From positions 1 through 61,609 of the forward strand of contig JAFMVE010000035.1 of the NCBI GenBank assembly GCA_025499705.1: a stretch of DNA of 61,609 bases. Direction: 5' to 3'. The notes under the pieces were generated by a model that saw only the letters and a program-made list of their open reading frames with translations, was not told where the DNA came from and did no database searches. Origin of the DNA: Carboxylicivirga caseinilyticus. Its GTDB lineage: Bacteria; Bacteroidota; Bacteroidia; Bacteroidales; Marinilabiliaceae. The position numbers were made by a program, and so were the translations under genes. The number at the start of each line of letters is the position of its first letter. Position 1 is the first letter of the stretch. Shown in pieces: positions 9,038-39,163 of the stretch.

Positions 9038-10135
9038 TTGAAAAAAGTTAACGTAACATTCTTCTTCCGCAAACCACAGCCTCAGTATTTTTCAATCGAA
9101 AAGGTATTTGAACAGGTAATAAATAATCTTCCTCCAGAAGTTGAACATCATTCTTACCAATTAAAAACTGGAACCAATGGTTGGTGGGGGCGAATAAAGG
9201 CTTTGGTTGAAGTCTGGCGAAATAAAGGGGCTATCAATCATATAACCGGAGATATTACTTTTATTGCTTTGGCATTGCCAAAGAAGGGGTTGGTTGTTAC
9301 CTATCATGATCTGGAATCACTGACCCAGTATAAAGGATGGCAACTGGCTATACTAAAATATTTGTGGGTTAAGATTCCGGTGAGAAGGGCCCAGGTTGTG
9401 ACTGCCATATCCAATCATACCAAAGAACAACTTATTAAATGGACGGGTTGTGATCCGGATAAGATTAAAGTAATTCACAATCCTTTGCCCGATCGCATTA
9501 ACTATTCTCCTAAAGAATTTAATAGCGAATGTCCACATATACTTGTTATGGGGACCAAAGATAATAAGAATGTAGAAGGGGTGTTTGAGGCGGTTTTTCA
9601 GTTGAAAAGTCGAAAAGTTGAAACGTTGAAAAGTTTAAAAGTTGATGAGGCAGAAGACGGGAGCCCCAATTGCCATCCAGGAAAGAATATGCACCAGGCA
9701 CCAGACACTGGGCACTATAAACTAATTGTAGTGGGTAAAATGACTGAGCTGCAAAAGGCTTTGGAGGAAGAGTATCAGCTGGATATTGAAAACCTGATTC
9801 AGGTGCCTTATGAGCAAATACTGGATGCCTATAAGCGATGTGACATCTTGTGCTTTCCCAGTTTTTACGAAGGTTTTGGATTGCCTATTATAGAAGCACA
9901 AGCCATTGGACGACCGGTGATTACATCCAATTTTTGGGCTATGAAAGAAGTGGCAGGTGAAGGAGCTTTCTTAGTTGATCCTTATAAGATTGATGATTTG
10001 CGACTAGCAATTAGCAATAGTGTTGAGAATGAAGAGTTAAGAAATGTTCTGGTTGAAAAAGGTCTTGAAAATGTTAAACGATTTGCAGTCTCCATGATAG
10101 CCAGGCAATATGCCGAAGTGTATGTCAGTTTTTAA
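9038..10135 (+). CDS. GT4-type glycosyltransferase with in-frame repeat insertion
   Basis: A 365-residue GT-B enzyme. The N-domain contains the HDL motif (VVTYHDLES, about 88-96). The C-domain starts at CPHILVMGTKDNKN and carries CFPSFYEGFGLPIIEAQAIGRPVITS, the conserved retaining-GT4 donor-binding segment. Between the first helix of the C-domain (FEAVFQL) and the next strand (YKLIVVGKM) lies an odd stretch of roughly 40 residues. Its DNA (9601-9717) consists of GTTGAAAAG words followed by CACCAGGCACCAGAC. The same GTTGAAAAG words fill intergenic DNA elsewhere in this window. The start is TTG at 9038; the nearby ATG at 9028 is out of frame. It follows the REP-like element by 27 bases. Confidence 0.88.
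   Translation: MKKVNVTFFFRKPQPQYFSIEKVFEQVINNLPPEVEHHSYQLKTGTNGWWGRIKALVEVWRNKGAINHITGDITFIALALPKKGLVVTYHDLESLTQYKGWQLAILKYLWVKIPVRRAQVVTAISNHTKEQLIKWTGCDPDKIKVIHNPLPDRINYSPKEFNSECPHILVMGTKDNKNVEGVFEAVFQLKSRKVETLKSLKVDEAEDGSPNCHPGKNMHQAPDTGHYKLIVVGKMTELQKALEEEYQLDIENLIQVPYEQILDAYKRCDILCFPSFYEGFGLPIIEAQAIGRPVITSNFWAMKEVAGEGAFLVDPYKIDDLRLAISNSVENEELRNVLVEKGLENVKRFAVSMIARQYAEVYVSF
9601..9717. repeat. in-frame low-complexity insertion (GTTGAAAAG words)
   Basis: GTTGAAAAGT recurs with small changes from 9601 to about 9645, then a GC-richer CACCAGGCACCAGACACTGG stretch runs to about 9715. It falls in a loop of the glycosyltransferase C-domain and contains no stop in the coding frame. Confidence 0.65.
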
Positions 10136-12123: not shown

Positions 12124-13383
12124 TTATAATTCTGATAGTTCTGATTCCATACTTTGGCAAATAGCCTCAAAGCTCCAATTTGCAATGTGGTTTTGACAGG
12201 TGTCAGGTTGTATGTTGGATTGAAGCAATTCATTTAGACAAGCGAGAAGCTCATTTTTAGTATTGGATTTAAATATTCGTCCAACACCAGATGTAACAAT
12301 GTCAACTGCACAACCTACCTTATCACTCACCAGAACAGGCCTACCTGAGGCCAGGGCTTCATTAACTGCTAATCCCCAGGTTTCCTCCGGACCTTTTGAA
12401 GGAAGGCAAAAAATATTTCCTAACCGGTATGCAACAGGCATCTGACTTTGGTTTACAAAAGGAATAAAGAAGATGTTGGGATCACCTTGTGAAAGGTGTT
12501 TCAGTTTTTTTTCAAGAGGACCGGATCCGATGAAAATGAGTTTAATTGGTTGAATTGCTGATCTCGATAACGATTGGGAGTTTAATTGTTGAATAGCATT
12601 GAGTAGGAGTAAAGGATTTTTCTTTGATTCAAGTTTTCCTGCAAATAAAACGACTTTATCCTCTGGCTTAATCCCCAGATCTTTTCGCCACTGCTTAGCC
12701 TTATTTTCGTATTCATTTTTATCAATACCCGTAAAACGATGGTTGTCGATGGCATGAGGTGCGAGTACTAACTGATGGTCTTTGAGTCCGTGGACTTGGA
12801 AATATTTTTTACTGTTGGTGCCAACATAAAAGGCTTTGTCGATATGCCGATAAACATATTTAAGTGTGAATTGACGAATTTTAAATTTTAAGAGTTGTTT
12901 TGTTGTGTTGATCCCGATAACAATCGGGAGTTGATGAGTTGAAGAGTTGAATAGTTGAGAAATGGTTTGGATATCATGGTCTAATAAGGTGCTATCACCC
13001 CTGAACCAGATAGGTACTTTACCTTTGAAATGACGCATCACCTGAAAATGACTTTTCAATTTCCATCCAAATATAAGGATAGCATCAGGGGTATAGTCTT
13101 TTACATTCTTAATTAAAGTAGGGTTGTCTATGCCACTCCACCTTTTTGATGAGGGATGTTGACTAATGTTATCTACCAATTCATAGTTATATCCATCTAA
13201 TAAGGGAATATCCCATTGTACTTTTTGTTTAAAATCGGGGTCATTGAATCCCTCAATGGCCTGTGGCCAGGTGTAAAACACCGTTAAATGACAGTTTTCC
13301 CGTTTATGGAGCATGGCAAACCAGGGGGCATTGTACTGGATAGGGTGGGTGGAGATAATGGCCAGACGCTTTTTTTTAGTCAT
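12124..13383 (-). CDS. GT4-type glycosyltransferase with two palindromic in-frame insertions
   Basis: A 419-residue GT-B glycosyltransferase and the last gene of the long minus-strand EPS array. The N-domain opens with RLAIISTHPIQYNAPWF. The C-domain shows VVLFAGKLESKKNP and then CLPSKGPEETWGLAVNEALASGRPVLVS with the E-x7-E motif. Two stretches look foreign. One in the N-domain reads QLFNSSTHQLPIVIGINTT (DNA 12905-12960). One in the C-domain between the first helix and the second strand reads IQQLNSQSLSRSAIQ (DNA about 12546-12600). Both DNA segments are the same composite palindromic repeat, read in different frames. The enzyme otherwise looks complete. Confidence 0.9.
   Translation of the reverse strand: MTKKKRLAIISTHPIQYNAPWFAMLHKRENCHLTVFYTWPQAIEGFNDPDFKQKVQWDIPLLDGYNYELVDNISQHPSSKRWSGIDNPTLIKNVKDYTPDAILIFGWKLKSHFQVMRHFKGKVPIWFRGDSTLLDHDIQTISQLFNSSTHQLPIVIGINTTKQLLKFKIRQFTLKYVYRHIDKAFYVGTNSKKYFQVHGLKDHQLVLAPHAIDNHRFTGIDKNEYENKAKQWRKDLGIKPEDKVVLFAGKLESKKNPLLLLNAIQQLNSQSLSRSAIQPIKLIFIGSGPLEKKLKHLSQGDPNIFFIPFVNQSQMPVAYRLGNIFCLPSKGPEETWGLAVNEALASGRPVLVSDKVGCAVDIVTSGVGRIFKSNTKNELLACLNELLQSNIQPDTCQNHIANWSFEAICQSMESELSEL
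12546..12600. repeat. composite palindrome, in-frame copy (C-domain)
   Basis: Read on the minus strand: a TTCAACAATTAAACTCC leader, an imperfect palindrome at 12563-12580 and a GATCAGCAATTCAA tail. It shares leader, palindrome and tail with the copies at 12905-12960 and 19185-19235. Confidence 0.75.
12905..12960. repeat. composite palindrome, in-frame copy (N-domain)
   Basis: A perfect palindrome with arms TCCCGAT/ATCGGGA at 12912-12929, with repeated GAGTTGA words on its right side (plus-strand view). The coding frame is kept, but the palindrome is read in a different phase from the other two coding copies. Confidence 0.8.
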
Positions 13384-13427
13384 TAGTTGTGAGTAGAAGG
13401 TTGTTAGTGACTTGTGATAAGTATTGA
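13384..13427. repeat. low-complexity border of the broken four-helix-bundle gene
   Basis: TTAGTTGTGAGTAGAAGG and TTGTTAGTGACTTGTGA words lie on this side. On the other side (13803-13827) the plus-strand text AACTCACTACTGAAAACTG is their approximate reverse complement, so the gene is bordered by inverted words. Confidence 0.5.
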
Positions 13428-13802
13428 TTATCTGCTGAATTTTTCTGGATGTGATAGTATAGCTAATAGTATTTTGCGAACTTCATTATATGATTCAATA
13501 TACTTCTGATATTTTGCTTCTGTTACATAATTGCATTTCCAGGCATATTCTAACCATACTTCAGTTTCATATTCTTCACCCAAAGAATCAGAAATTTTAT
13601 TGACAAACGATTTTGGGTAAATCTTTTTAGCCCAGGCTTCAGCTATGTTCGAGCATATCGAACGTGATGATCGTCTCATTTGATCCGTCAGAGCTTATTT
13701 TTCTTCTTTGGGAAATTCTTTTGAATCTTCAAAAATATCCATAGATAGCTGGAATGCTTTCTGATAGACAATTAACTCCTTAAAGCTTTTTATATTACTC
13801 AT
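13428..13802 (-). pseudogene. four-helix-bundle (S23-like) protein gene with in-frame stop
   Basis: Read from an ATG at 13802, the frame encodes SNIKSFKELIVYQKAFQLS and so on. After 35 codons a TAA (13695-13697) stands where relatives have a residue. The same frame then continues through ALTDQMRRSSRSICSNIAEAW to the end, giving 124 residues in total, the normal family length. Only the last 83 codons remain open from the next ATG (13679). The helix pattern and SNIAEAW match PF05635. No shift in frame is needed, so this is a single nonsense change, a read-through case, or a sequencing error. Confidence 0.85.
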
Positions 13803-13827
13803 AACTCACTACTGAAAACTGTTAACT

Positions 13828-15162
13828 CTAAATTACAGCTTCTAATGCTTCCACTAACTTCCGGGCACTTTCTTTTGCTGAATATTGATCTAAAGCAGAT
13901 AAATCAGGATTCCAGTCCTGGTCTGAAAGTCTTTTTGAGAGTACTGCTTTAAATTCCATAACCAAATCATTTTCTGTCATCTTCGGTTTGTATCTGACAG
14001 TATATTGATCTGCCTTACAATCTTCCATTACTTTCACAGCACTACTTTTGTGATGGAAAATACTTAATACAGGTCTTTCACTTAATAGTGACTGATAGGT
14101 TTTACTGGCTGTATAATGTTCTTCGGTGCTGCCAATAATCATCACTGTATCAGCTACTGAAAGAAAATTAAGTACCTTAAGGAATGGATAGCGTTCCCGA
14201 TTTTCGAATACGATATCACTGATCTCATGATCCTCTGCATAGGCCGTTATGCGCTTTGCAGGGTATTGACCGGTACCTATAAACCAAAGTTGAATATCCT
14301 TATCCCATTTCCCTTCTTTGCGTAACTCTGATATGCTTTTAAAAAAGGAATCCAGTAGAATATGACTGTTGGGTAGGAAGGCACCGGCGTAGAGCCAGAT
14401 TTTAGGTTTTAGGTGATAGGATTTAGGATTTAGGAGAGTACTTTCCCAAGGATAGGTCAAGTTCTCTAATTTTATTTTATGATCGTTGGGATCGAAGCCG
14501 TAGGGCATGCCTACGTGGGTTATAGGTTTTAGAGTGTTAGGGTTTAGGATTTTATTAGTCAAATGAGAGAAGTCAGTAGTTAGTAGCTTATTAGCTATTG
14601 AGGGGAAATTACGTTGGATAGCGGGAGCAAAGTAGGGAGTACTGACACCACTAATTACGCTAACTTTTTTTATGGCGATGGGCTCTAATACTCGAGCAAT
14701 CCATTGACTAAGTTTTGCCCGCAAGTTATTCTGGTTACTGATATCCCGTACCCATGGATCGATATAATCAATGCCATATGATATCTTTGTTTTTTCGTAA
14801 AGAAGTCTACCCAAGAGGGCGTTATAAAAACTGGGGATGGGTAACCAAATAAAATCAATCTGTTCTTTACTAATAATGTTTTTCGCTTCTTTATACAACT
14901 GATAAAAGGCTCTTAAACCAATGTCACCTATTAAGCGTGGCTTACTTACTTTAAAGGCTTTAACTCGTGTAACGCTAAAATCATCCGAAAAAGTCTTTTC
15001 GAAATCAGGATCAGGTGTTTCTTCAAAATAACCAGCATCAACTGTTAATACACGAGGTAGCCAGTCCAGTTCTTTCAGATAATTTCCAATTAACCGGGGA
15101 CGTTGCACGCCTGCTAGGTTTGCCGGATGCCAGTGTGGATATATGATAAGGATTGTGTTCAT
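13828..15162 (-). CDS. GT4-like glycosyltransferase with TTTAGG-word insertions
   Basis: A 444-residue GT-B protein. The N-domain begins ILIIYPHWHPANLAGVQRPR, and the C-domain strand KIWLYAGAFLPNSH marks the second Rossmann domain. The usual E-x7-E donor motif is less clear here, with IIGSTEEHYTASKTYQSLLSERP in the corresponding place. Immediately before the C-domain strand lies STLLNPKSYHLKP, encoded by TTTAGG words at 14401-14436. Another repeat-derived stretch, ILNPNTLKPI, is encoded at 14521-14553. The family is related to glycosyltransferases that process sialic-acid-like or amino-sugar donors, but I cannot assign the substrate. Confidence 0.85.
   Translation of the reverse strand: MNTILIIYPHWHPANLAGVQRPRLIGNYLKELDWLPRVLTVDAGYFEETPDPDFEKTFSDDFSVTRVKAFKVSKPRLIGDIGLRAFYQLYKEAKNIISKEQIDFIWLPIPSFYNALLGRLLYEKTKISYGIDYIDPWVRDISNQNNLRAKLSQWIARVLEPIAIKKVSVISGVSTPYFAPAIQRNFPSIANKLLTTDFSHLTNKILNPNTLKPITHVGMPYGFDPNDHKIKLENLTYPWESTLLNPKSYHLKPKIWLYAGAFLPNSHILLDSFFKSISELRKEGKWDKDIQLWFIGTGQYPAKRITAYAEDHEISDIVFENRERYPFLKVLNFLSVADTVMIIGSTEEHYTASKTYQSLLSERPVLSIFHHKSSAVKVMEDCKADQYTVRYKPKMTENDLVMEFKAVLSKRLSDQDWNPDLSALDQYSAKESARKLVEALEAVI
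14401..14436. repeat. in-frame TTTAGG-word repeat
   Basis: The words TTTAGGTTTTAGG and ATTTAGGATTTAGG lie in the linker just before the C-domain of the glycosyltransferase. The same words border the four-helix-bundle gene at 15255-15620. Confidence 0.7.
14521..14553. repeat. second in-frame TTTAGG-word repeat
   Basis: TATAGGTTTTAGAG and GTTAGGGTTTAGG words with the coding frame left open. The following bases (to about 14600) are also low in complexity, with AGTAGTTAGTAGC words. Confidence 0.65.
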
Positions 15163-15254
15163 GAATGATAGGTTCTAGGATTTTGGGAATAGGTTTTAGG
15201 AAATAGGTATTAGGGAATAGGAATTAGGATTTAGGTTGGTGAAGTTACAGGATC
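15163..15254. repeat. TTTAGG/AATAGG words, left border of four-helix-bundle gene
   Basis: Almost the entire gap is built from AATAGG, TTTTAGG and ATTAGGG words in one orientation. Confidence 0.75.
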
Positions 15255-15620
15255 TTATATCTCTAATTTGTTTCTTTTGGAGGTAATTAAAGCATTGATC
15301 ATTTTTAATATTTCGAAAGCATCTGTTTCAAAATTTTTTAATTGCTCAGATGAAATAAATTTACGTTTTTCAAAAATAACAAGTAATGTTACTGATTCAT
15401 ATAATGATCCACGAGCAATATGTAAAAAGTGAATGAACTCTTTTAAGGAATGTCTGCCCTTTCCTTCTGCAATATTTTGAGGAATGGATGTAGAACAAGC
15501 CTCCATTTGTTCAATTAGCCTATAATGTCCTTTTACCTGATCACAAATATTTAATATTTCGTTGGCATACTCAATTGCTTTTTGCCAAACGATTAGATCT
15601 TTGAATTCAAAATTATTCAT
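15255..15620 (-). CDS. four-helix-bundle (S23-like) protein
   Basis: A 121-residue helical protein of the 23S rRNA intervening-sequence family (PF05635/TIGR02436). It has the N-terminal FKDLIVWQKA, a central PQNIAEGKGR, and FLHIARGSLYESVTLL. Members form four-helix bundles that oligomerise. The family includes the Avd accessory protein of diversity-generating retroelements, but most chromosomal copies have no known role. It lies alone between two EPS genes, bordered on both sides by TTTAGG-type words, and does not overlap either neighbour. Confidence 0.9.
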   Translation of the reverse strand: MNNFEFKDLIVWQKAIEYANEILNICDQVKGHYRLIEQMEACSTSIPQNIAEGKGRHSLKEFIHFLHIARGSLYESVTLLVIFEKRKFISSEQLKNFETDAFEILKMINALITSKRNKLEI

Positions 15621-15800
15621 TGTTATAGGATATAGGGGTTAGGTTATAGGTTTTAGTTCTTAGGGGGAGGTATAGTAAGTAATTTGTGAAATATGATGTT
15701 GTTTTTAGGAATAGAATATAGGTGTACAGTTATCGACATGCAATAATCTTTAAGTCTAAAATTCTAACCCCTAAAACCTAAGACCTATGAGCGAAGCGAT
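15621..15800. repeat. TTTAGG words and inverted CCTAAAACC words, right border
   Basis: TATAGGGGTTAGGTTATAGG and TTTTAGTTCTTAGGGGG words lie at 15627-15670. Their reverse-complement vocabulary (CTAACCCCTAAAACCTAAG) appears at 15765-15785, so the two parts could pair. Confidence 0.7.
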
Positions 15801-17135
15801 CTAGATTCTAATCCCCCACTGCCGTTTAATAAACCACAATAAACCAAATACTAATACACTGGCTTTGATCAGGTGATTCAATACAACAGCAAATTCGGTT
15901 TCGGCTTTAACCACCTGGAGAAATAAAATAGGACTCCAGATCAGTAGAGTCGGATAAAAGGAGCTCCAATCCTCCAGTTTTTTCCAGAACCAAGAGATAA
16001 ATACACCCCAAAAAAACATAAAGAAGATACCTCCCCAATAGCCATAATTGGCATAGCCTTCTCCTACAATACTAATACCCATGGACGTATTATCATCAAT
16101 CTCAAGGCCCGTAAATAGACGAAAATGTTCCCGGCCGCCAGCTTTTTTCTTATTGGGAGCCAGAAAGCGGGGTAATAAACTGGATTCAATACCTTCCCAT
16201 ATAGTGGCACCGCCGGCAAAGGATTCTTTCTCGTTGGTATTTTTCATTACTGCGGAGATAATCCAGCCCTGGTTAAGACGAACATTCATATCTTCTTCTG
16301 TGGATGGTGTCAGTATGCTGCCATCACTCCACTGACTGGTAGCCAATCCAAGAAATAAAGCTACTTTATTACCGCTATAGCCCTGCTTCCATACCATTTC
16401 GCGGTATTGCGCTTTTACGGATTGAATGGTCACTGCAAAAAAGATCCCTAAGACAGCTACTCCCAGTTTGTTGATAAAAGTAAGCTTAAGCTCCCTGGCC
16501 ACAAAAGTAAATGATAACATGGCCCAAAGAAGTAAATCGTGAAACATACCGGCAGCTATGGAAACCACTGCCGTAAAGGCCATGGTAGCCCAAAAGATGG
16601 GCCAGCGATTGGGCTTGCCTGAAAATAGAAGGTAAATAACACCGATGTATTTAATATTGGCTAAGAGGAAAAAGACAAAACTTAAGGATGCTGGTAGAAA
16701 TCCTGAAAAATAAGGTATTAATAATCCGATAACTATAAAGTAATAGGGTAACTTTGGATAATCACCTAGTAATATGCTGACTCTATTTCCTATATCTTCG
16801 AGGCTGGAGTGATCTTTAAACATTAAGGTACCTATGCGAAAGACGATAATTGCCGGTACCACAAAGGACATATATACCATTTCCTCAACATACATATGAT
16901 ATTTATAGTGATAGGCCTCATTATAATAGTCAATGGCCGGGCCAACAATCCATTGCAGGGCAGCCATGGCGGTCATTAAATCCACTATGGGGATGCGTTG
17001 GCCCATGCGGTCAATTACTTTTAAGGTATAGAAAAGTGCCAACCCAAGTCCAATGGCTGTCCATAAATAAGCCCCGTTAACCAAGAGTATTAATGCTAAA
17101 AAGGCTGAAAGTATTATGTTGGTTTTAATGGTCAT
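15801..17135 (-). CDS. Wzy-like O-antigen/EPS polymerase
   Basis: A 444-residue polytopic membrane protein with about ten to twelve hydrophobic segments. A large soluble loop sits at about residues 255-345 and ends in SMGISIVGEGYANYGYWGGI, a pattern typical of Bacteroidota O-antigen polymerase-like proteins. Such enzymes join lipid-linked repeat units at the periplasmic face. Sequence conservation in the family is low, so the call rests on topology, length, the loop motif and the surroundings. It is preceded by a GT4 gene with about 110 bases between them. Confidence 0.75.
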   Translation of the reverse strand: MTIKTNIILSAFLALILLVNGAYLWTAIGLGLALFYTLKVIDRMGQRIPIVDLMTAMAALQWIVGPAIDYYNEAYHYKYHMYVEEMVYMSFVVPAIIVFRIGTLMFKDHSSLEDIGNRVSILLGDYPKLPYYFIVIGLLIPYFSGFLPASLSFVFFLLANIKYIGVIYLLFSGKPNRWPIFWATMAFTAVVSIAAGMFHDLLLWAMLSFTFVARELKLTFINKLGVAVLGIFFAVTIQSVKAQYREMVWKQGYSGNKVALFLGLATSQWSDGSILTPSTEEDMNVRLNQGWIISAVMKNTNEKESFAGGATIWEGIESSLLPRFLAPNKKKAGGREHFRLFTGLEIDDNTSMGISIVGEGYANYGYWGGIFFMFFWGVFISWFWKKLEDWSSFYPTLLIWSPILFLQVVKAETEFAVVLNHLIKASVLVFGLLWFIKRQWGIRI

Positions 17136-17248
17136 TAATAATGATTAGGCGAATAATTTGTCAACAAATTAAAAGTAGGTCGATTTTCGTTTTTATACCG
17201 CAAAGTAAACAAAGTATTTATAGCAAAGGTCAGAGAGTGGAGTAATAA

Positions 17249-18562
17249 TTAATTTTGATTTTCAATAGATGTAGGTGTTGCCATCCAAATGGTTATTAAT
17301 TTTTCTCTTTCTTGCTCCCATGCCAGTTCTTTACCTCTCTTAAATCTTTCCTGATGTTGCCTTCTAATTGATTCAGTTTTACTCATTAAATTAAAGAGGC
17401 TGTCTTTTAGTTTAACGACTGTTTGACCTGAAATACATCCTCTGTTCGTATCTGTGTCCATAAATTGCTTTTGAGCCGGAGTATCAGTTGCCAATATATA
17501 TAATCCGGCTTGAGCATAGGCAATTATTTTATTGGAGATGGCCAGATTGTTGTTTAAGTCTTTACCTGGTTCTAAAGCAAGGCTAATGTCGTGGTTGGCG
17601 AGTTCGGCGTGGAGGTCGGGTTGAGACATTGGATTTTCGATGTGAAGATTTATGATTTGCGATTTATCCTCTTTCGCTGAAGCTATGGAGGACAAGAAGG
17701 GTTGGATGATTTGTTGCTTAAAGGATGGATCGAGGTCTCCTATTAATGTCAGGTTGATAGGTTGATATGTCAATAGGTCACTAGATTTAATTAATAGAGT
17801 AAGAGCTTCTAATAGTTGTTCGAGACCACGGCCGAAGGATATCTTTTGGCTAAACCAGACCAAACGCAGAGCATTTGAGGTTTTAGGAACTAGGTCATAG
17901 GTTTTAGGCATTATGAATTCCGAAGAAGGAAAACTGTTGAGAATTACCTTATGATTTGGATGACCTCCAATCAGTTTTAATGTATATTCACTAATTAAAG
18001 GACTAGCCAATGTGAGTGCATGGGCATCAGGTAAAAGCTTTTTCATTAAAAACTCACGGCGCTTCTTTTCGTTTTTGGCATCGAAGCGGATAAACTCACC
18101 AGGGTGGTAATCTTCCACATCAAATACAAAGGGGATATTCCATTTTTGACTACATTTCCAGGCCGGATATAAAGTGCCCAGATTATGAGCACATATTAAA
18201 TTTGGTTTTTCATTCAGTTTTAATGCAGTATGTAATAACTGAAAAGCCCGGCGACTAGTTGCCAGAGCATTTATTTTCATACTCCTTTTAAAGATAGGAT
18301 AAAGCTTTTGTGCAAACTTTTCCAACAATCCCCACTTCAGCCATTTTATTCTATCTGTCGGTGTAGCGTCAATATTTATAACCTGGACTCTTTTTAACTC
18401 ATCACTTTTAACTAATAACTCATCACTTCTGCAGTCACTCCAATTCCCCAGTTTAAATTGAAGGAGTGTGCATTGGTGTCCTAACTCTAAGGCATAGCAA
18501 AGCTCCTTATACAAACGTGGATTGGTGGCCAGGTTATTTGTTGTGAGGAAAAGGATGTGCAT
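17249..18562 (-). CDS. GT4-like glycosyltransferase with several repeat-derived stretches
   Basis: A 437-residue GT-B glycosyltransferase. The N-domain starts HILFLTTNNLATNPRLYKEL and includes FVFDVEDYHPGEF. The C-domain starts at LRLVWFSQKISFGRG and ends with an SNKIIAYAQAGLYILATDTPAQ donor region. Three stretches have repeat-like DNA: CRSDELLVKSDELKR in the N-domain (18397-18430), YDLVPKTSNA just before the C-domain (17879-17910), and SDLLTYQPI between the first helix and second strand of the C-domain (17751-17784). All remain in frame. Substrate unknown. Confidence 0.85.
   Translation of the reverse strand: MHILFLTTNNLATNPRLYKELCYALELGHQCTLLQFKLGNWSDCRSDELLVKSDELKRVQVINIDATPTDRIKWLKWGLLEKFAQKLYPIFKRSMKINALATSRRAFQLLHTALKLNEKPNLICAHNLGTLYPAWKCSQKWNIPFVFDVEDYHPGEFIRFDAKNEKKRREFLMKKLLPDAHALTLASPLISEYTLKLIGGHPNHKVILNSFPSSEFIMPKTYDLVPKTSNALRLVWFSQKISFGRGLEQLLEALTLLIKSSDLLTYQPINLTLIGDLDPSFKQQIIQPFLSSIASAKEDKSQIINLHIENPMSQPDLHAELANHDISLALEPGKDLNNNLAISNKIIAYAQAGLYILATDTPAQKQFMDTDTNRGCISGQTVVKLKDSLFNLMSKTESIRRQHQERFKRGKELAWEQEREKLITIWMATPTSIENQN
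17751..17784. repeat. in-frame GTTGATAGG/GTCAATAGG words
   Basis: AGGTTGATAGGTTGATATG and TCAATAGGTCACTAG words inside the glycosyltransferase frame, at the C-domain helix-strand loop. Confidence 0.6.
17879..17910. repeat. in-frame GGTTTTAGG words
   Basis: Two copies of GGTTTTAGG separated by AACTAGGTCATA. This is the same vocabulary as at 14401-14436 and 15163-15254. Confidence 0.7.
18397..18430. repeat. in-frame AACTCATCACTT direct repeat
   Basis: AACTCATCACTT occurs twice, separated by TTAACTAAT, and encodes the duplicated SDELL/SDELK of the protein. Confidence 0.75.
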
Positions 18563-18644
18563 TATAAGGTCGTTAGCTTGTTAGGTGAATAGATCAGTAG
18601 GTTATAGGAGATAGGATTTGGGTTTTTCGGGTTGTTCTTTTACA
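18563..18644. repeat. short low-complexity spacer
   Basis: GTTAGCTTGTTAGG and GTTATAGGAGATAGGATTTGG words fill the gap between two glycosyltransferase genes. Confidence 0.5.
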
Positions 18645-19967
18645 TTATTTTAAAATGTACAAATACTCTTGTTCAATGATTATTGCCACAGCATCCATTG
18701 AGTGTGGTGTTTTAATGTTATTTGAAAACTGATTAATCAATTCTGGTTGGTTAATTAATTTTTGTATTCTTGAACAAAGTTGTTCGGTATCACCATTCTT
18801 AAATAATAAACCATCTATACCATCATTAATCATGCTTTTTATGGCAATGTAATCAGAACCAATTACCGGAATTTTTCGGGTGGCGGCTTCCAGTATCACC
18901 AAGGGGGCCACTTCGTTGGATACTGAAGGCAGAATAAGTACGTCAACTTGATTCAAATAGTATACAACCTCCTGTTGCGAAAGGGCTTCATTCCACGTTA
19001 TGTTTGCTTTTTCAGATGCCCATTTTTTGTGTTCATCAAAGTACTCCGTTTCGCCGCCTGAAGGATTGGTCAGTACATGTAAATGAGCTTTACTTTTATC
19101 TATTTGTTCCCAGGCTTCCTTTAATAAATGAAAACCTTTTGAAGGGTGCATACGGCCGATGAAGGCGAAATGTATTTTATCTGTTGATCCCGATAGCCAT
19201 CGGGAGTTGAGTTGTTGAATTGTCGAACTGTTAAAGAAAACAGGACTGATGCCCTGGGGTATTAATTTCGCTTTGGTGATGCCATTGATTTCGAATGCCT
19301 CCTGAATCCAGGGTGCTATTGAAAATACGATATCTGCATATTTTTTGACACGGTCTAACTCTGCTTTGCGGTGATCAACCTGAAATACGGCTGGAGCGAT
19401 TTTTTTGTGTTGAGTTGTTAATTTGTGTAACTGTTGAAATGAAATACTTAGTAAATTAGAAATGGTTTTATTGTTTCCCCTGCTTTGAAACAGACAGCTT
19501 AGGCAGCGTTTTACATCAACGCGACAGTCACAATTTTCTTTCCCATATAATCTGACATCACCTTTTATACAAAAGAAACTCCCTAAATGAGGAGTAAAAG
19601 CTGTTTTAATTCCTAATTCTTTTACTGCTCTTAAATGATAACCATTAATGGCACGGCCAAAGGAGTGAAAGTGGACCAAATCAGGCTGGATTTCTTTTAC
19701 TCTTTTCAAAAAGCCTTCAATGCCTCTTGGTGGTATCAAGCCATTTAATTCTTTCGGATCAGGTTTTAGTGGTATTGGAAAGGTATATACCGGAATGTTC
19801 TCGTATTCGTAATCTTCTTTAGATTCAGTAGTGGCAATTAATACTCCAACCTTCCAACCTTTAGTTTTAAAATAATGGCAAAGGTTAAGCACATACACTT
19901 CAGTTCCGGCACGATGTGAGGGGAAAAAGGATTCGAGGGTGAAGAGTAGTTTTCGAGATACAGACAT
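18645..19967 (-). CDS. GT4-type glycosyltransferase with cysteine cluster and palindromic insertion
   Basis: A 440-residue GT-B enzyme. The N-domain begins with FPSHRAGTEVYVLNLCHYF. After HSFGRAINGYHLRAVKELG comes a cysteine cluster (FFCIKG, then CDC, then CLSCLF, about residues 130-165) as seen in a subgroup of GT4 enzymes, possibly a metal site. The C-domain starts KIHFAFIGRMHPSKGFHLL and has PSVSNEVAPLVILEAATRKIPVIGS. Between VFF and KIHFAF lies NSSTIQQLNSRWLSGSTD, encoded by the composite palindromic repeat at 19185-19235. It is separated from the following GT2 gene by only 3 bases. Confidence 0.9.
   Translation of the reverse strand: MSVSRKLLFTLESFFPSHRAGTEVYVLNLCHYFKTKGWKVGVLIATTESKEDYEYENIPVYTFPIPLKPDPKELNGLIPPRGIEGFLKRVKEIQPDLVHFHSFGRAINGYHLRAVKELGIKTAFTPHLGSFFCIKGDVRLYGKENCDCRVDVKRCLSCLFQSRGNNKTISNLLSISFQQLHKLTTQHKKIAPAVFQVDHRKAELDRVKKYADIVFSIAPWIQEAFEINGITKAKLIPQGISPVFFNSSTIQQLNSRWLSGSTDKIHFAFIGRMHPSKGFHLLKEAWEQIDKSKAHLHVLTNPSGGETEYFDEHKKWASEKANITWNEALSQQEVVYYLNQVDVLILPSVSNEVAPLVILEAATRKIPVIGSDYIAIKSMINDGIDGLLFKNGDTEQLCSRIQKLINQPELINQFSNNIKTPHSMDAVAIIIEQEYLYILK
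19185..19235. repeat. composite palindrome, in-frame copy (inter-domain linker)
   Basis: Perfect arms TCCCGAT/ATCGGGA at 19188-19205, followed by GAGTTGAGTTGTTGAATTG (plus-strand view). Same organisation as the copies at 12546-12600 and 12905-12960. Confidence 0.8.
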
Positions 19968-32500: not shown

Positions 32501-32890
32501 TTAGGTGACCAGATTGTTTATAATTCTTTTGTATTGTAGGCTTGGCTTACCGAAATTAATTAGGATGCCAAGTTTTTTGTTGGTAGCTTTTAGATAATTA
32601 ATTAGCTGTGATTCATGTTCACTAGTCAAGTCACTCAAAGCTTTTAATTCTATTATTATATCATTGTAGCATATAAAGTCTGCTTTATAATACTTATCAA
32701 GTTTATCACCTTTATAGTAAATGCTAATCAAGGCTTCTTTTTGAAAAGGAATGCCTTGTAACACGAACTCTTTTTGAATAGCCTCTTGATAAACAGGTTC
32801 CAGAAACCCATTCTTTAATTCGTTATGCACCTCAAATGCGGCACCTATTATTTTATAGGCCTCATCTTTATACAATATTCCTTCAACCAT
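32501..32890 (-). CDS. GxxExxY protein (PDDEXK-like)
   Basis: A 129-residue protein of the GxxExxY family (PF13366). It shows AYKIIGAAFEVHNELKNGFLEPVYQEAI with the namesake GFLEPVY, followed by a nuclease-like core YKADFICYNDIIIELKA that fits the D-x(n)-ExK arrangement of PDDEXK proteins. Its role is unknown. The ATG at 32890 is preferred over a frame opening at 32971, which would overlap the permease gene. It separates wzm from wzt and is bordered by GCGAATT-type words. Confidence 0.85.
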   Translation of the reverse strand: MVEGILYKDEAYKIIGAAFEVHNELKNGFLEPVYQEAIQKEFVLQGIPFQKEALISIYYKGDKLDKYYKADFICYNDIIIELKALSDLTSEHESQLINYLKATNKKLGILINFGKPSLQYKRIINNLVT

Positions 32891-32927
32891 CCTGTAAAAT
32901 TCGAGATAATTAGCGCAAATTCGGTGA

Positions 32928-33776
32928 TTATACTGTATCCATAAATGTTTTTTCAACTTTATTAAATACAACGGTACCTAAAAACATTAGTACTGCCATA
33001 AAAACAATGCTATAGCCTAGTAACTCCCAACTAAAGGTGCCGGCTCCAGTAAATCCATAACGAAAAGTTTCAACTATCCCTGTCATTGGATTCAACATGA
33101 TGATTTGTTTCATTTTACCTTCAACAAACGATAATGGATATATTACCGGAGTTGCGTACATCATTAATTGCACAGCAAAAGTTAGCAGGAAAGTAAAATC
33201 GCGGTATTTGGTTGTAAGGGCCGAAATTAACATACCAGCTCCCAAACCTAAGCCAGCCATAATTATTATTAAAACAGGTAATAAAACTATATGCCATGAA
33301 GGAATGAGATTAACTTCTGTACCTCCGATTATCATAAAATAACCCCAAACCGCCAAGAATAATGATAGCTGAACACCAAACTTCAATAATTGTGAGATAA
33401 CCATGGATAAAGGTGTGATAACCCTTGGGAAATAAACCTTACCAAAGATGCCAGCATTACCACGGAAAGTATTGGATGTAAGTGTTAAACAACTTGAGAA
33501 ATATTGCCACATAACATTACCACTTAAATAGAATACCAATGGAGGCATACCGTCAACCGGAATTTTCGCAATGTTATTAAAAATTACCAGTTGCATTAAA
33601 GAGGTAAGTATGGGTTGAATAAAAAACCATAGAGGACCAAGTACGGTTTGTTTGTAGATAGCTACAAAATCGCGACGAACGAATAGGAATAGTAAGTCGC
33701 GGTACTTCCAGGTTTCTTTTAAGTTAAGGTCTAGTAATTTAGATTTTGGTTTTATTTCTAATGTGTAATTTTCCAT
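32928..33776 (-). CDS. wzm: Wzm-type ABC-2 polysaccharide exporter permease
   Basis: A 282-residue inner-membrane protein with six membrane segments and the ABC2 signature FVRRDFVAIYKQTVLGPLWFF near the N-terminus. The frame is open to 33851, but those extra 25 codons come from a CCCGAT-N4-ATCGGG palindrome and its flank. The ATG at 33776 (ENYTLEIKPKSK) is taken as the true start. Together with wzt it forms the EPS exporter. It also carries LNPMTGIVETFRYG, the conserved loop of this family. Confidence 0.95.
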   Translation of the reverse strand: MENYTLEIKPKSKLLDLNLKETWKYRDLLFLFVRRDFVAIYKQTVLGPLWFFIQPILTSLMQLVIFNNIAKIPVDGMPPLVFYLSGNVMWQYFSSCLTLTSNTFRGNAGIFGKVYFPRVITPLSMVISQLLKFGVQLSLFLAVWGYFMIIGGTEVNLIPSWHIVLLPVLIIIMAGLGLGAGMLISALTTKYRDFTFLLTFAVQLMMYATPVIYPLSFVEGKMKQIIMLNPMTGIVETFRYGFTGAGTFSWELLGYSIVFMAVLMFLGTVVFNKVEKTFMDTV

Positions 33777-34262
33777 TTGTTTTATCAACGAATTTACGCT
33801 CCCGATGACTATCGGGATTGTCGAGAATTTATTTTTCTGTTTAATTTTCAAACTGTTTATTTGTTGAGTTGTTCTTTGAGTGCCTAATACAAAGTGCCTA
33901 GTGCTTTACTTATCTACTTACACTTTCTCCTAAATTTAGCTATCAGCCATTAGCTAACAGCTATTAGCTTTTTAAAACCACAGATTAGTTGGATGTTCGA
34001 TGTTTAGATGTTCAATATATGATGTTAAGATGTTGGATATTGAATTATTTATTTGCAGCTTGGTTTTTTTGTCCACTAATTGCGCTCCCAATGATTATCG
34101 GGTTTAACAAGAATTTAATTTTTTGTTTAATTGTCTGACTGTTCAATTGATTATAATTGGTAATCTAAACCTTTACTAACTTCTAAAGTGAAGCGTTCTA
34201 ATTACTAATAGCTTCTTTGCTGCATTAATCTCTAATCTTTTATCCTTTTTACTTTTTTCTTG
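33777..34262. repeat. intergenic region with two related palindromic elements
   Basis: No gene. A perfect TCCCGAT/ATCGGGA palindrome lies at 33800-33817, followed by GAATTTATTTTTCTGTTTAATTT text. A second element at 34087-34102 (one mismatch) is followed by AAGAATTTAATTTTTTGTTTAAT, so the two are diverged copies of one composite. Between them are GATGTTCGATGTTTAGATG words (33992-34030). The stretch ends with a 60-base sequence (about 34180-34240) repeated at 34978-35043. Confidence 0.7.
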
Positions 34263-34877
34263 TCAGATCCTTTTATAATCTTCCTCTGGTTCTTGCACTT
34301 GTTCAGGGAAGATGTTGGTAAGGTTTAATTCAAAGCCAGGTAAAAGTTCGCTTTTAACGGTATCTCCTTCAGTTAGTGGTTTAGTAGCTTTGTATAAACC
34401 GGCATTATTCAGCAGAAAACAGGTTAATGTTCTCTCGAATGGATGAATGATCCAGTATTCCTTAACACCTGAACGTTCATATAAATCATATTTCTCGTGC
34501 AAATCTTTCTTGGCCGTTGAAGGAGAAATAATTTCAACCACTAAATCAGGAGCTCCATTACAACCTTTGTTGTCTATTTTACTTAGATCACAAACAATGC
34601 ATATATTCGGTTGAACCACAGATTGAGAATCGTCTTGCATACTATCAAGCCTAACGTCAAAAGGAGCTGAGAAAACTTTACAGTCTTTCGTTTTTAAGAA
34701 TTGATAAAGTTCAGAACTTAAAGCAACTGCAATTTCCTGGTGAATGGGAGAAGGAGCAGGTGACATTTTAAAAATACGACCTTTAATTAGCTCTACACGT
34801 GTCTTAAATTGCCAGGTAAGGTAATCTTTAAAGGTGTAATGTTTATTTATATCTATTTGGTTAATGTTGGAGATCAA
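34263..34877 (-). CDS. Uma2 family PDDEXK endonuclease-like protein
   Basis: A 204-residue protein of the Uma2/DUF820 family. It has YTFKDYLTWQFKTRVELIKGRIFKMSPAPSP with the first acidic residue, QPNICIVCDLS, and the core PDLVVEIISPSTAKKDLHEKYDLYERSGVKEYWIIHP, giving the D-ExK type nuclease site as ExI rather than ExK. These proteins are very common in cyanobacteria and some Bacteroidota, with unclear role. The only available start is TTG at 34877, at the edge of a GATGTTTGATG repeat; no ATG lies between the last upstream stop and the conserved domain. Confidence 0.85.
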   Translation of the reverse strand: MISNINQIDINKHYTFKDYLTWQFKTRVELIKGRIFKMSPAPSPIHQEIAVALSSELYQFLKTKDCKVFSAPFDVRLDSMQDDSQSVVQPNICIVCDLSKIDNKGCNGAPDLVVEIISPSTAKKDLHEKYDLYERSGVKEYWIIHPFERTLTCFLLNNAGLYKATKPLTEGDTVKSELLPGFELNLTNIFPEQVQEPEEDYKRI

Positions 34878-35097
34878 TGGATGTTTGATGTTTAGATGTA
34901 TGATGTAAAGATGTTAGTTAATATTATGAATTGTTGACTCGATAGTTATCGAGTTGTTTAACTATTTTATTTTTCATTTCTAACTTCTAAAGTAAAACGT
35001 TCTAACTACTAATACCTTCTTTGCAGATTTAATCTCTAATCCATAATCGAAGTATTGAGACATTAACCATAAATAATTAACAACTAACCATTATTCA
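34878..35097. repeat. repeat-rich gap upstream of Uma2 gene
   Basis: GATGTTTGATGTTTAGATG words (34880-34913) are followed by a palindrome with arms ACTCGAT/ATCGAGT at 34937-34954. The second copy of the 60-base direct repeat (CTAACTTCTAAAGT and on) lies at 34978-35043. The first copy is on the other side of the gene at about 34180-34240. Confidence 0.75.
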
Positions 35098-35966: not shown

Positions 35967-36314
35967 TTATTTGTTTAGCATTAATGATTTGCGAGTTACA
36001 ATGAAAATAGAAGCAAGTTCGTGAGCTTCTTGTTTCAGAGAGCTAATATTAGAGAGTAAATTGTTTTCTTCTATCAGTTCAAGCCAAAACTCAGTTTCAT
36101 CAGCTTCTTCTATTACAATACTTAATTTGGCGATGTAAGATGCTCTGGATTGTGCTAAACAAGCAGCCCTATAATTTGCGGCAACAGATGTAGCTGATCG
36201 TATGATTTGCTTTTTGATATGTTGAGCTAAATAAGAATCAGGCAATTTTGATGTGAGTTTAATAATATTAACAGTAAACTGTTTGGTTCTTTTCTTTAAC
36301 TCGTCCTTGTTCAT
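35967..36314 (-). CDS. four-helix-bundle (S23-like) protein
   Basis: A 115-residue member of PF05635. This subtype has SATSVAANYRAACLAQSRASYIAKL followed by EEADETEFWLELI, rather than the QNIAEG core of the other copies here. The protein is helical throughout. It is bordered on both sides by GATGTTTGATG words that also appear near the Uma2 gene. Function unknown; members form oligomeric helical bundles. Confidence 0.88.
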   Translation of the reverse strand: MNKDELKKRTKQFTVNIIKLTSKLPDSYLAQHIKKQIIRSATSVAANYRAACLAQSRASYIAKLSIVIEEADETEFWLELIEENNLLSNISSLKQEAHELASIFIVTRKSLMLNK

Positions 36315-37149: not shown

Positions 37150-37515
37150 TTAACTAACTATAAGTAAGTTTTTATGAAATGCGTTAAGTTTATTGGATAA
37201 TTCATTTATTTGAATTCTAAAATCAGAAAGTATTATATCTGATATGAAATTTAAATCTTTAGAAAGTATTAATTGATTTAAAACTTCTAACAGGCTTGAA
37301 TATGCAATTTCAATAAAACGAGCTTTATCTTTTTTACTATTCCTCCCATTTCCTTCTGCTATATTGGATGAGATAGATACAGAGGCTCTTCTTAATTGAT
37401 TAGTTAGTCCGAATTTTTCTGAATCTGGAAAATCTGTAGTTACTTGGTAAATATTTTTTACTAATTCCCTAGAAAGCTGCCAGATCTCTAATTTTTCAAA
37501 ACTATAAGTATACAT
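37150..37515 (-). CDS. four-helix-bundle (S23-like) protein
   Basis: A 121-residue PF05635 member. It begins YSFEKLEIWQLSRELVKNIYQ, with the core SSNIAEGNGRNSKKDKARFIEIAYSSLLEVLNQL. The frame is open upstream to 37596, but those codons are repeat-derived (TTKQFNLSTTKHLNKYH) and the ATG at 37515 fits the family start. It lies between cysC and the epimerase gene. Function unknown. Confidence 0.9.
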   Translation of the reverse strand: MYTYSFEKLEIWQLSRELVKNIYQVTTDFPDSEKFGLTNQLRRASVSISSNIAEGNGRNSKKDKARFIEIAYSSLLEVLNQLILSKDLNFISDIILSDFRIQINELSNKLNAFHKNLLIVS

Positions 37516-37709
37516 ATGATATTTGTTTAAGTGTTTAGTTGTTGAGAGGTTAAATTGTTTAGTTGTTAATTTAATCCGAAATATCATATTTCTCAAGAAC
37601 TAGATTTCAACATTCTCTAACTTTTACACTTCCTCATCAGTACGTCTAAACAGTTCTACACCTCAACACCTCCACAGCTCATCAATTCAACAACTTTACA
37701 ATTCAACAA
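37516..37709. repeat. GTTTAGTTGTTGA words and inverted TCAACAACTAAAC words
   Basis: Words GTGTTTAGTTGTTGAG and TTGTTTAGTTGTTAA lie at 37530-37570. Inverted words CACCTCAACACC, CATCAATTCAACAAC and TTCAACAACTAAACC lie at 37660-37715. Both ends therefore share one vocabulary in opposite orientation. Confidence 0.75.
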
Positions 37710-38791: not shown

Positions 38792-39163
38792 TTACTCAAT
38801 AGCTTTGGATAAACTATTTATTAGTCCATTTAGCATTTTTCCAAGTTCAATTCCATTCTGTTCACATTCTTCTAGTTTCTGATTTGTTATCCAGTTTCTT
38901 TTTTCAAAAAGATTAAGCAAGGTGATAGTTTCATATAGAGAGCCTCTGGAATAATATATAAACTGAATGAATTCTTTCTTTGAATGTCTTCCGCTTCCTT
39001 CGGCAATATTTTGAGCTATTGAGCTACTAGCAGCTTCTGTTTGTTCTATTAACTTATAATGTTTATAATCAGAATTCAGATTTTCACATATTTCAATAAT
39101 CTTATCTGCAAATACAAGTGCTTTTTGCCAAACAGTTAAGTTCTTAAATAAAAAATCGCTCAT
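38792..39163 (-). CDS. four-helix-bundle (S23-like) protein
   Basis: A 123-residue PF05635 member close to the copy at 15255-15620. It has FKNLTVWQKALVFADKI, AQNIAEGSGRHSKKEFIQF and YYSRGSLYETITLL. It is the fifth family gene in the locus and the first gene of the minus-strand array as read. Function unknown; co-transcription with the epimerase gene is possible (86 bases apart). Confidence 0.9.
   Translation of the reverse strand: MSDFLFKNLTVWQKALVFADKIIEICENLNSDYKHYKLIEQTEAASSSIAQNIAEGSGRHSKKEFIQFIYYSRGSLYETITLLNLFEKRNWITNQKLEECEQNGIELGKMLNGLINSLSKAIE

Follow-up and report, generated by a model that had tools for sequence, protein, structure and literature searches.

Period-7/8 repeat tracts, some with a palindrome, lie in frame in glycosyltransferase and neighbouring genes of a Carboxylicivirga polysaccharide locus

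We examined 61,609 nucleotides (nt) of Carboxylicivirga caseinilyticus (contig JAFMVE010000035.1), hereafter the window, in which short repeat DNA lies in frame inside several genes of a polysaccharide locus. Two of these genes, both on the minus strand, encode group 1 glycosyltransferases: P0001 (12124-13383; 419 amino acids (aa); PF00534, 7e-28) and P0002 (18645-19967; 440 aa; PF00534, 1.3e-24). On the same strand between them stand P0003 (13828-15162), P0004 (17249-18562) and a gene for a four-helix protein of the 23S_rRNA_IVP family (IVP; 15255-15620; PF05635, 3.6e-31), and a further glycosyltransferase open reading frame (ORF) runs the opposite way at 9038-10135. P0001, P0002 and ORF 9038-10135 have glycosyltransferase family matches above cut-off. 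Those of P0004 are all below it (Glyco_trans_4; NCBIfam, PDB and permissive Pfam checks), and P0003 matches no family in Pfam, permissive search included, NCBIfam or PDB; by layout and place in the locus (by eye for P0003) both may be glycosyltransferase-like.

The original prediction described one composite palindromic repeat inserted in frame at 12546, 12905 and 19185, and these three copies are indeed real and in frame, with both ORFs intact. Each consists of TTCAACNN units, a CCCGAT-N4-ATCGGG palindrome and an ATCAAC tail, the palindrome arms being perfect at 12912-12929 and 19188-19205 and carrying 2 mismatches at 12562-12579. The copies score 34, 35 and 35 out of 39 specified bases, and the best score reached is 25 both in 178.6 kb of other DNA from the same genome and in 12 simulations of the window by a third-order Markov model; the 39-base consensus was derived from these very copies, so the scoring is partly circular. 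The palindrome is translated in two reading phases, as had been claimed, giving NSQSLSRS at 12546 and NSRWLSG at 19185 in one and LPIVIGIN at 12905 in the other. Thus, it is the DNA and not the peptide that the copies have in common.

In P0001, the copy at 12905 belongs to an in-frame insert of 25 aa (75 nt; 12901-12975, minus strand) that contains TTCAACNN octamers at 12930-12959 next to the palindrome. The second copy in this gene (12547-12600, minus strand), which lies below our threshold for calling a tract, brings a net 8 aa at 12547-12570, and alignment with homologues places a net 7-8 aa of P0002 at 19188-19211, within the copy at 19183-19235 (minus strand). Among 14 homologues of P0001, drawn at E 1e-40 from 198 genomes of the order (own included), residues 137-161 are absent in 14/14 (one, L032, keeps a single residue) and residues 272-279 likewise in 14/14. 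Where P0002 has the composite, all four of its full-length homologues fall short by 7-8 aa, the fragmentary ones being uninformative. What had been expected of homologues, that they would lack exactly a 45-60 base element, was not found, since the net inserts are 75, 24 and 21-24 nt. Because only 24 and 21-24 nt were gained at two of the three places, the repeat appears there to have replaced part of an older loop as well.

Inserts of related composition enlarge three further proteins. In P0003, an in-frame CCTANNN heptamer array of five units (14403-14434, minus strand; pattern match and alignment) gives a net 8 aa at 14416-14439 (residues 242-249), and a 23-aa insert found by alignment (14536-14604, minus strand; residues 187-209) consists of decayed heptamers recognised by eye only, with 0 nt above the tract threshold. 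A homologue of P0003 in genome G219 (64-66% identical) carries 25 aa at the site of residues 187-209, largely coded by an ACTCACN array, and lacks the other insert; all other 14 homologues lack the 23-aa insert, and one distant homologue keeps a single residue at the second site. The inserts of P0004 measure 4, 6, 8 and 13 aa, the 13-aa one not being a tract. On the minus strand, the 8-aa insert (17768-17791) accompanies an octamer tract of TATCAACC type (17745-17791 in all; tract search and alignment), the 6-aa insert (17897-17914) overlaps a CCTANNN array matching the exact pattern at 17884-17908, and the 4-aa insert (18392-18403; alignment) has 7 of its 12 nt in a period-7/8 tract. ORF 9038-10135 contains a 36-aa insert on the plus strand (9605-9712, boundaries by eye on the alignment), made of GTTGAAAA octamers (tract 9590-9652) and then CACCAGG-type heptamers (by eye), which is absent in two full-length homologues (L139 and L177, ~37% identical). 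With six of the nine tract-related inserts of the locus free of the palindrome, the reading of a palindromic element does not reach far enough: the locus has degenerate tracts that repeat every 7 or 8 bp, and the palindrome is one of their components.

Six of the nine inserts, where their position is readable, fall at two recurring places in the protein. One is directly before the C-terminal domain, in P0002 (where the PF00534 match begins at residue 262) and by eye in P0003 and P0004. The other is the next helix-to-strand loop, in P0001 (within the PF00534 match, opposite a gap to PDB 3c4q), in ORF 9038-10135 and by eye in P0004, a placement that assumes a GT-B topology. The remaining three are in the N-terminal half (P0001 137-161, P0003 187-209 and P0004 54-57). 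Taken together, the inserts of the five genes amount to 417 nt, of which 144 fall in period-7/8 tracts, compared with a mean of 22.5 and a maximum of 135 under a circular-shift null (0/5000 shifts reach 144), and the overlap at control periods 10/11 is 0. By threshold, 7 of the 13 called inserts overlap a tract. This survey covered intact ORFs and used homologue rows of at least 60% coverage (leaving out 1/15 for P0004 and 5/9 for P0002); MAFFT split the insert of the fifth protein, that of ORF 9038-10135, in two, and 4 N-terminal aa of P0002 were counted among the inserts.

The same units occur in neighbouring spacers. CCTANNN arrays lie on both sides of the IVP gene, downstream at 15190-15241 and upstream at 15622-15663 (both minus strand; pattern match), and tracts of GATTAAA and GTTGAAAA type follow P0001 (12042-12121, minus strand; tract search). 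There are 12 period-7/8 tracts in the 61.6-kb window versus 4 in 500 kb of other stretches of the genome (control periods 10/11 gave 2), one of these four adjoining a hairpin (C100); the sampled remainder of the genome is thus at about background level for tracts. A long-ORF rule puts 3 of the 12 window tracts in genes and misses the 9590 tract, probably for the TTG start of its ORF. Genome-wide, four consecutive CCTANNN units match at 8 places, all of which lie on this contig between 14403 and 17908, in two genes and in spacers (reversed control, 2). Three consecutive TTCAACNN units at up to 1 mismatch match at 5 places, all on this contig, and allowing 2 mismatches adds 6, of which 4 are on this contig (reversed control, 4).

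Tracts of this kind form an unnamed class of degenerate, period-7/8 intergenic sequences in other Bacteroidota, to which those of the window belong, with autocorrelation above background at these periods and not at others. TTCAACNN tracts at up to 1 mismatch are present in 48 of 295 genomes of the order, own included, with 45-46 matches in two genomes (the reversed control matched in 23 genomes, by our own count). In stretches taken from matching genomes, 109 of 116 tracts are outside long ORFs. Five of the 7 in ORFs (own genome and G219 left out) are in a single protein, L216 10162-12195 (contig C21 of genome G145). This is a putative membrane protein of 678 aa, with no Pfam match, whose long linker is coded in frame by five heptamer tracts and which looks real. 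The in-ORF tracts of L188 and L189 are likely spurious, their ORFs having no Pfam family, and that of L111 is probably due to chance; in L188 4695-5939 the tract is upstream of a GvpL domain. Twenty stretches round homologues in other genomes (272 kb; G219 and G128 left out) hold 3 tracts, and the 40-kb stretch of G219 holds 7, one of them in the P0003 homologue. In a test for a constant core with a free spacer, only 23 of 137 tracts gave p<0.05 and 15 gave p<0.01, which is no more than suggestive of such a pattern. TTCAACNN arrays in L106, L108, L119 and L122 stand directly upstream of TATCTTTG sequences, which we take to resemble the Bacteroidota -7 promoter motif.

Further palindromes, said to lie in non-coding DNA, exist at all four places named (11885, 33800, 34087 and 34937), although the non-coding status of the 33800 copy is uncertain: it falls just within ORF 32928-33851, which is listed with a TTG start that may not be the true one. 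The 11885 copy is terminator-like (CCCCGAT..ATCGGGG), that at 34087 has 1 mismatch within the 16-nt core, and that at 34937-34954 (no strand assigned) is an intergenic variant, CTCGAT-N4-ATCGAG, between octamer-like flanks TTAAACAA and TCAACAATTC. The core with its N4 loop occurs exactly at 16 places in the 5.65-Mb genome, 4 of them in the window, and at up to 1 mismatch at 25 places, 5 in the window. Outside the window, 17 of 20 hairpins are intergenic by ORF mask, none of the 20 shows a TTCAAC leader with an ATCAAC tail on inspection, and the flanks have a raised period-7/8 score (8.53 vs 7.39, p 0.0018, n=17; control periods, p 0.80). As for the composite itself, the idea of a genome-wide family failed: a search tolerating up to 2 mismatches hits the own genome at 12907 and 19183 of the window and nowhere else, and it hits none of 294 other genomes of the order. 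At up to 3 mismatches, 12 of 395 genomes of the phylum match, own included. The other genomes account for 26 matches, every one with 3 mismatches, and 19 of them are of a CCACTCCCGATAGCTATCGGGAT-type element. That element is repeated in five genomes of one genus in the same class (L053-L057, L063-L076), with up to 8 matches per genome. A scan of contigs found at least one copy of one exact composite variant, in what is probably a spacer of a 4.1-kb contig of a Proteiniphilum metagenome-assembled genome (MAG), this contig being the only place in that MAG with the exact hairpin; the count is a lower bound, because the leader scanned (TTCAACT) is not that of the window copies (CTCAACT, ATCAACT) and records of the own genome were possibly outside the scan.

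The explanation we favour, with a probability of roughly 0.6, is that genes of a polysaccharide locus, itself probably imported, received tract DNA by local copying and kept it only where it was in frame in permissive loops. The palindrome would then belong to degenerate tracts of an intergenic type, with a period of 7 or 8 bp and with or without the in-phase CCCGAT-N4-ATCGGG hairpin. DNA resembling the tracts in the spacers nearby would have been copied into the coding DNA for glycosyltransferases and for two proteins like them. Template switching at repeats and hairpins, or illegitimate recombination there, is the most likely route, and selection would have spared those events that kept the frame in permissive, presumably exposed loops. 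Horizontal transfer would account for the arrival of the locus, which is probable given that the DNA sampled from elsewhere in the genome is no richer in tracts than background. Within the E-value limits used, homologues of P0001-P0004 turned up in other families and in 0/2 (P0001, P0002) or 0/3 (P0003, P0004) of the same-family genomes searched. The tract distribution and this pattern of homologues therefore favour an imported locus.

Several observations weigh against this explanation. Insertion is deduced from alignments at 23-66% identity, no empty-site pair of close relatives was found, and the nearest homologue, at 64-66% identity, is available for P0003 only. For P0003 (no match) and P0004 (matches below cut-off) both the term glycosyltransferase and the GT-B loops are unproven, and single-sequence AlphaFold models of P0001 and P0003 were too poor for loops (pLDDT 38-40) and were unused. 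Six of the 13 called inserts have no base above the tract threshold, three of which were assigned otherwise (12547 by the composite, 17884 by the exact CCTANNN array and 14536 by eye); three inserts are not tracts (17642-17680 in P0004; 19425-19436 and the N-terminus of P0002), so such loops vary by other means too. A tract also lies within the ORF of a P0004 homologue (L249 1198-1242). Finally, the locus stands out only mildly in tetranucleotide composition: eight 5-kb pieces covering 0-40 kb rank 64, 27, 83, 76, 78, 96, 78 and 89 of 100.

Another way to view the composite copies is as a mobile palindromic element akin to the Rickettsia palindromic elements (RPE), moved as a unit by a transposase acting in trans and inserting in frame. 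RPE likewise place palindrome-bearing DNA in frame within ORFs (summarised in PMC3733652), and here too the insertions are in frame, the ORFs intact and the inserts absent from homologues, whose orthology is unproven. The composite scores, the use of two phases and the copy in a probable Proteiniphilum spacer speak for such mobility. Unlike RPE, however, the composite is not dispersed in many copies over unrelated genes and spacers, being found only twice and in this locus, and its 16-nt core sits in octamer tracts. Loops, flanks and net insert lengths differ between copies, transposition of a palindromic unit would account for three of the nine inserts, and a scan of 49 of the 51 listed window ORFs with E limits of 1e-3 to 1e-5, not made genome-wide, gave no match to a transposase or Y1 (RAYT) family. 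We thus regard a mobile unit as unlikely, if the foremost of the alternatives. Repetitive extragenic palindromic (REP) sequences, the GTAG and CGTC palindromes associated with RAYT transposases, offer a similar comparison, as short palindromes that are mostly intergenic and in some cases in genes (PMC3733652), but none of seven palindromes here has a GTAG or CGTC foot within 12 bases on either side. TAACTGA heptamer direct repeats of Beggiatoaceae, Cyanobacteria and some Bacteroidetes, mainly intergenic with some in ORFs (PMC4679880), share the period of 7 and the occasional in-ORF location. Two such units are inside purC of a Bacteroidetes member, according to the same source, which counters the remark in the original prediction that no such description was known to its author for Bacteroidota. 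The present units differ in being other, more degenerate and internal to several proteins of one locus, the in-ORF TAACTGA copies reported there being mostly at protein ends, and two consecutive TAACTGA units occur 0 times in the window and L177-L276. No in-frame period-7/8 tracts in Bacteroidales glycosyltransferases were recognised in the literature searched, which covered few subscription journals.

The tracts could instead be dispersed by a system that includes the four-helix IVP proteins (23S_rRNA_IVP, bAvd-related) encoded among them. In the window there are five genes or gene remnants of the IVP family (13431-13694, with the frame broken by a stop, 15255-15620, 35967-36314, 37150-37596 and 38792-39163), several of which adjoin period-7/8 arrays, and in two other genomes IVP genes (L181 8369-9024 and L221 16358-17103) are closely flanked by long arrays, mutually inverted in L181. 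In the DNA surveyed, period-7/8 flanks of at least 15/22 on both sides accompany 4/8 IVP genes and 19/1016 others (Mann-Whitney p 1e-5 on the weaker side; control periods 10/11, p 0.27), and in the window alone 2/5 and 2/44. Yet the sample is eight genes, one of them on a stretch chosen for its array (3/7 without L221), and the genes of the window themselves supplied the profile. Moreover, 400 kb of G145 has 28 tracts and no IVP gene, an IVP gene elsewhere in the own genome (L018) has weaker flanks (14 and 13), and IVP genes may merely ride in spacers. This makes their involvement rather unlikely, a step below the mobile unit, and a fuller proposal, that tracts, in-phase hairpins and the IVP/bAvd-like genes between them are one dispersal system that carries tracts across spacers and into the loop-coding parts of genes for surface-polysaccharide enzymes, creating new protein loops, is more speculative again. 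Phase variation, with tracts kept so that slippage by 7 or 8 bp switches proteins on and off, would suit a period not divisible by 3 and genes for surface polysaccharides, which we take to be typically phase-variable. It is nonetheless very improbable, since the units are degenerate and exact period-7/8 repetition extends over at most 7-12 nt in the five genes, not enough for slippage to be frequent. A chance likeness of coding DNA to repeats is barely credible: the two TTCAACNN matches at 2 mismatches off this contig do represent background, but the overlap of inserts with tracts and the composite scores contradict it.

Among the remaining features of the window, small nuclease-family genes (PDDEXK_3, 32501-32971; Uma2, 34263-34877) share the polysaccharide region with the IVP genes and tracts, SusC/SusD-like proteins are part of the gene content, and at the contig end (1-488) a 91-nt repeat that contains a CTCCTCGAT..ATCGAGGAG-type palindrome occurs three times, accompanied by a 61-nt repeat that occurs twice. 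If local copying of tract DNA is the correct explanation, non-coding repeat DNA would have been turned repeatedly into protein sequence within one locus. Two relatives with different repeats at one site make the origin of a loop from spacer DNA testable by strain comparison, and the IVP proteins are a first candidate gene family near the tracts.

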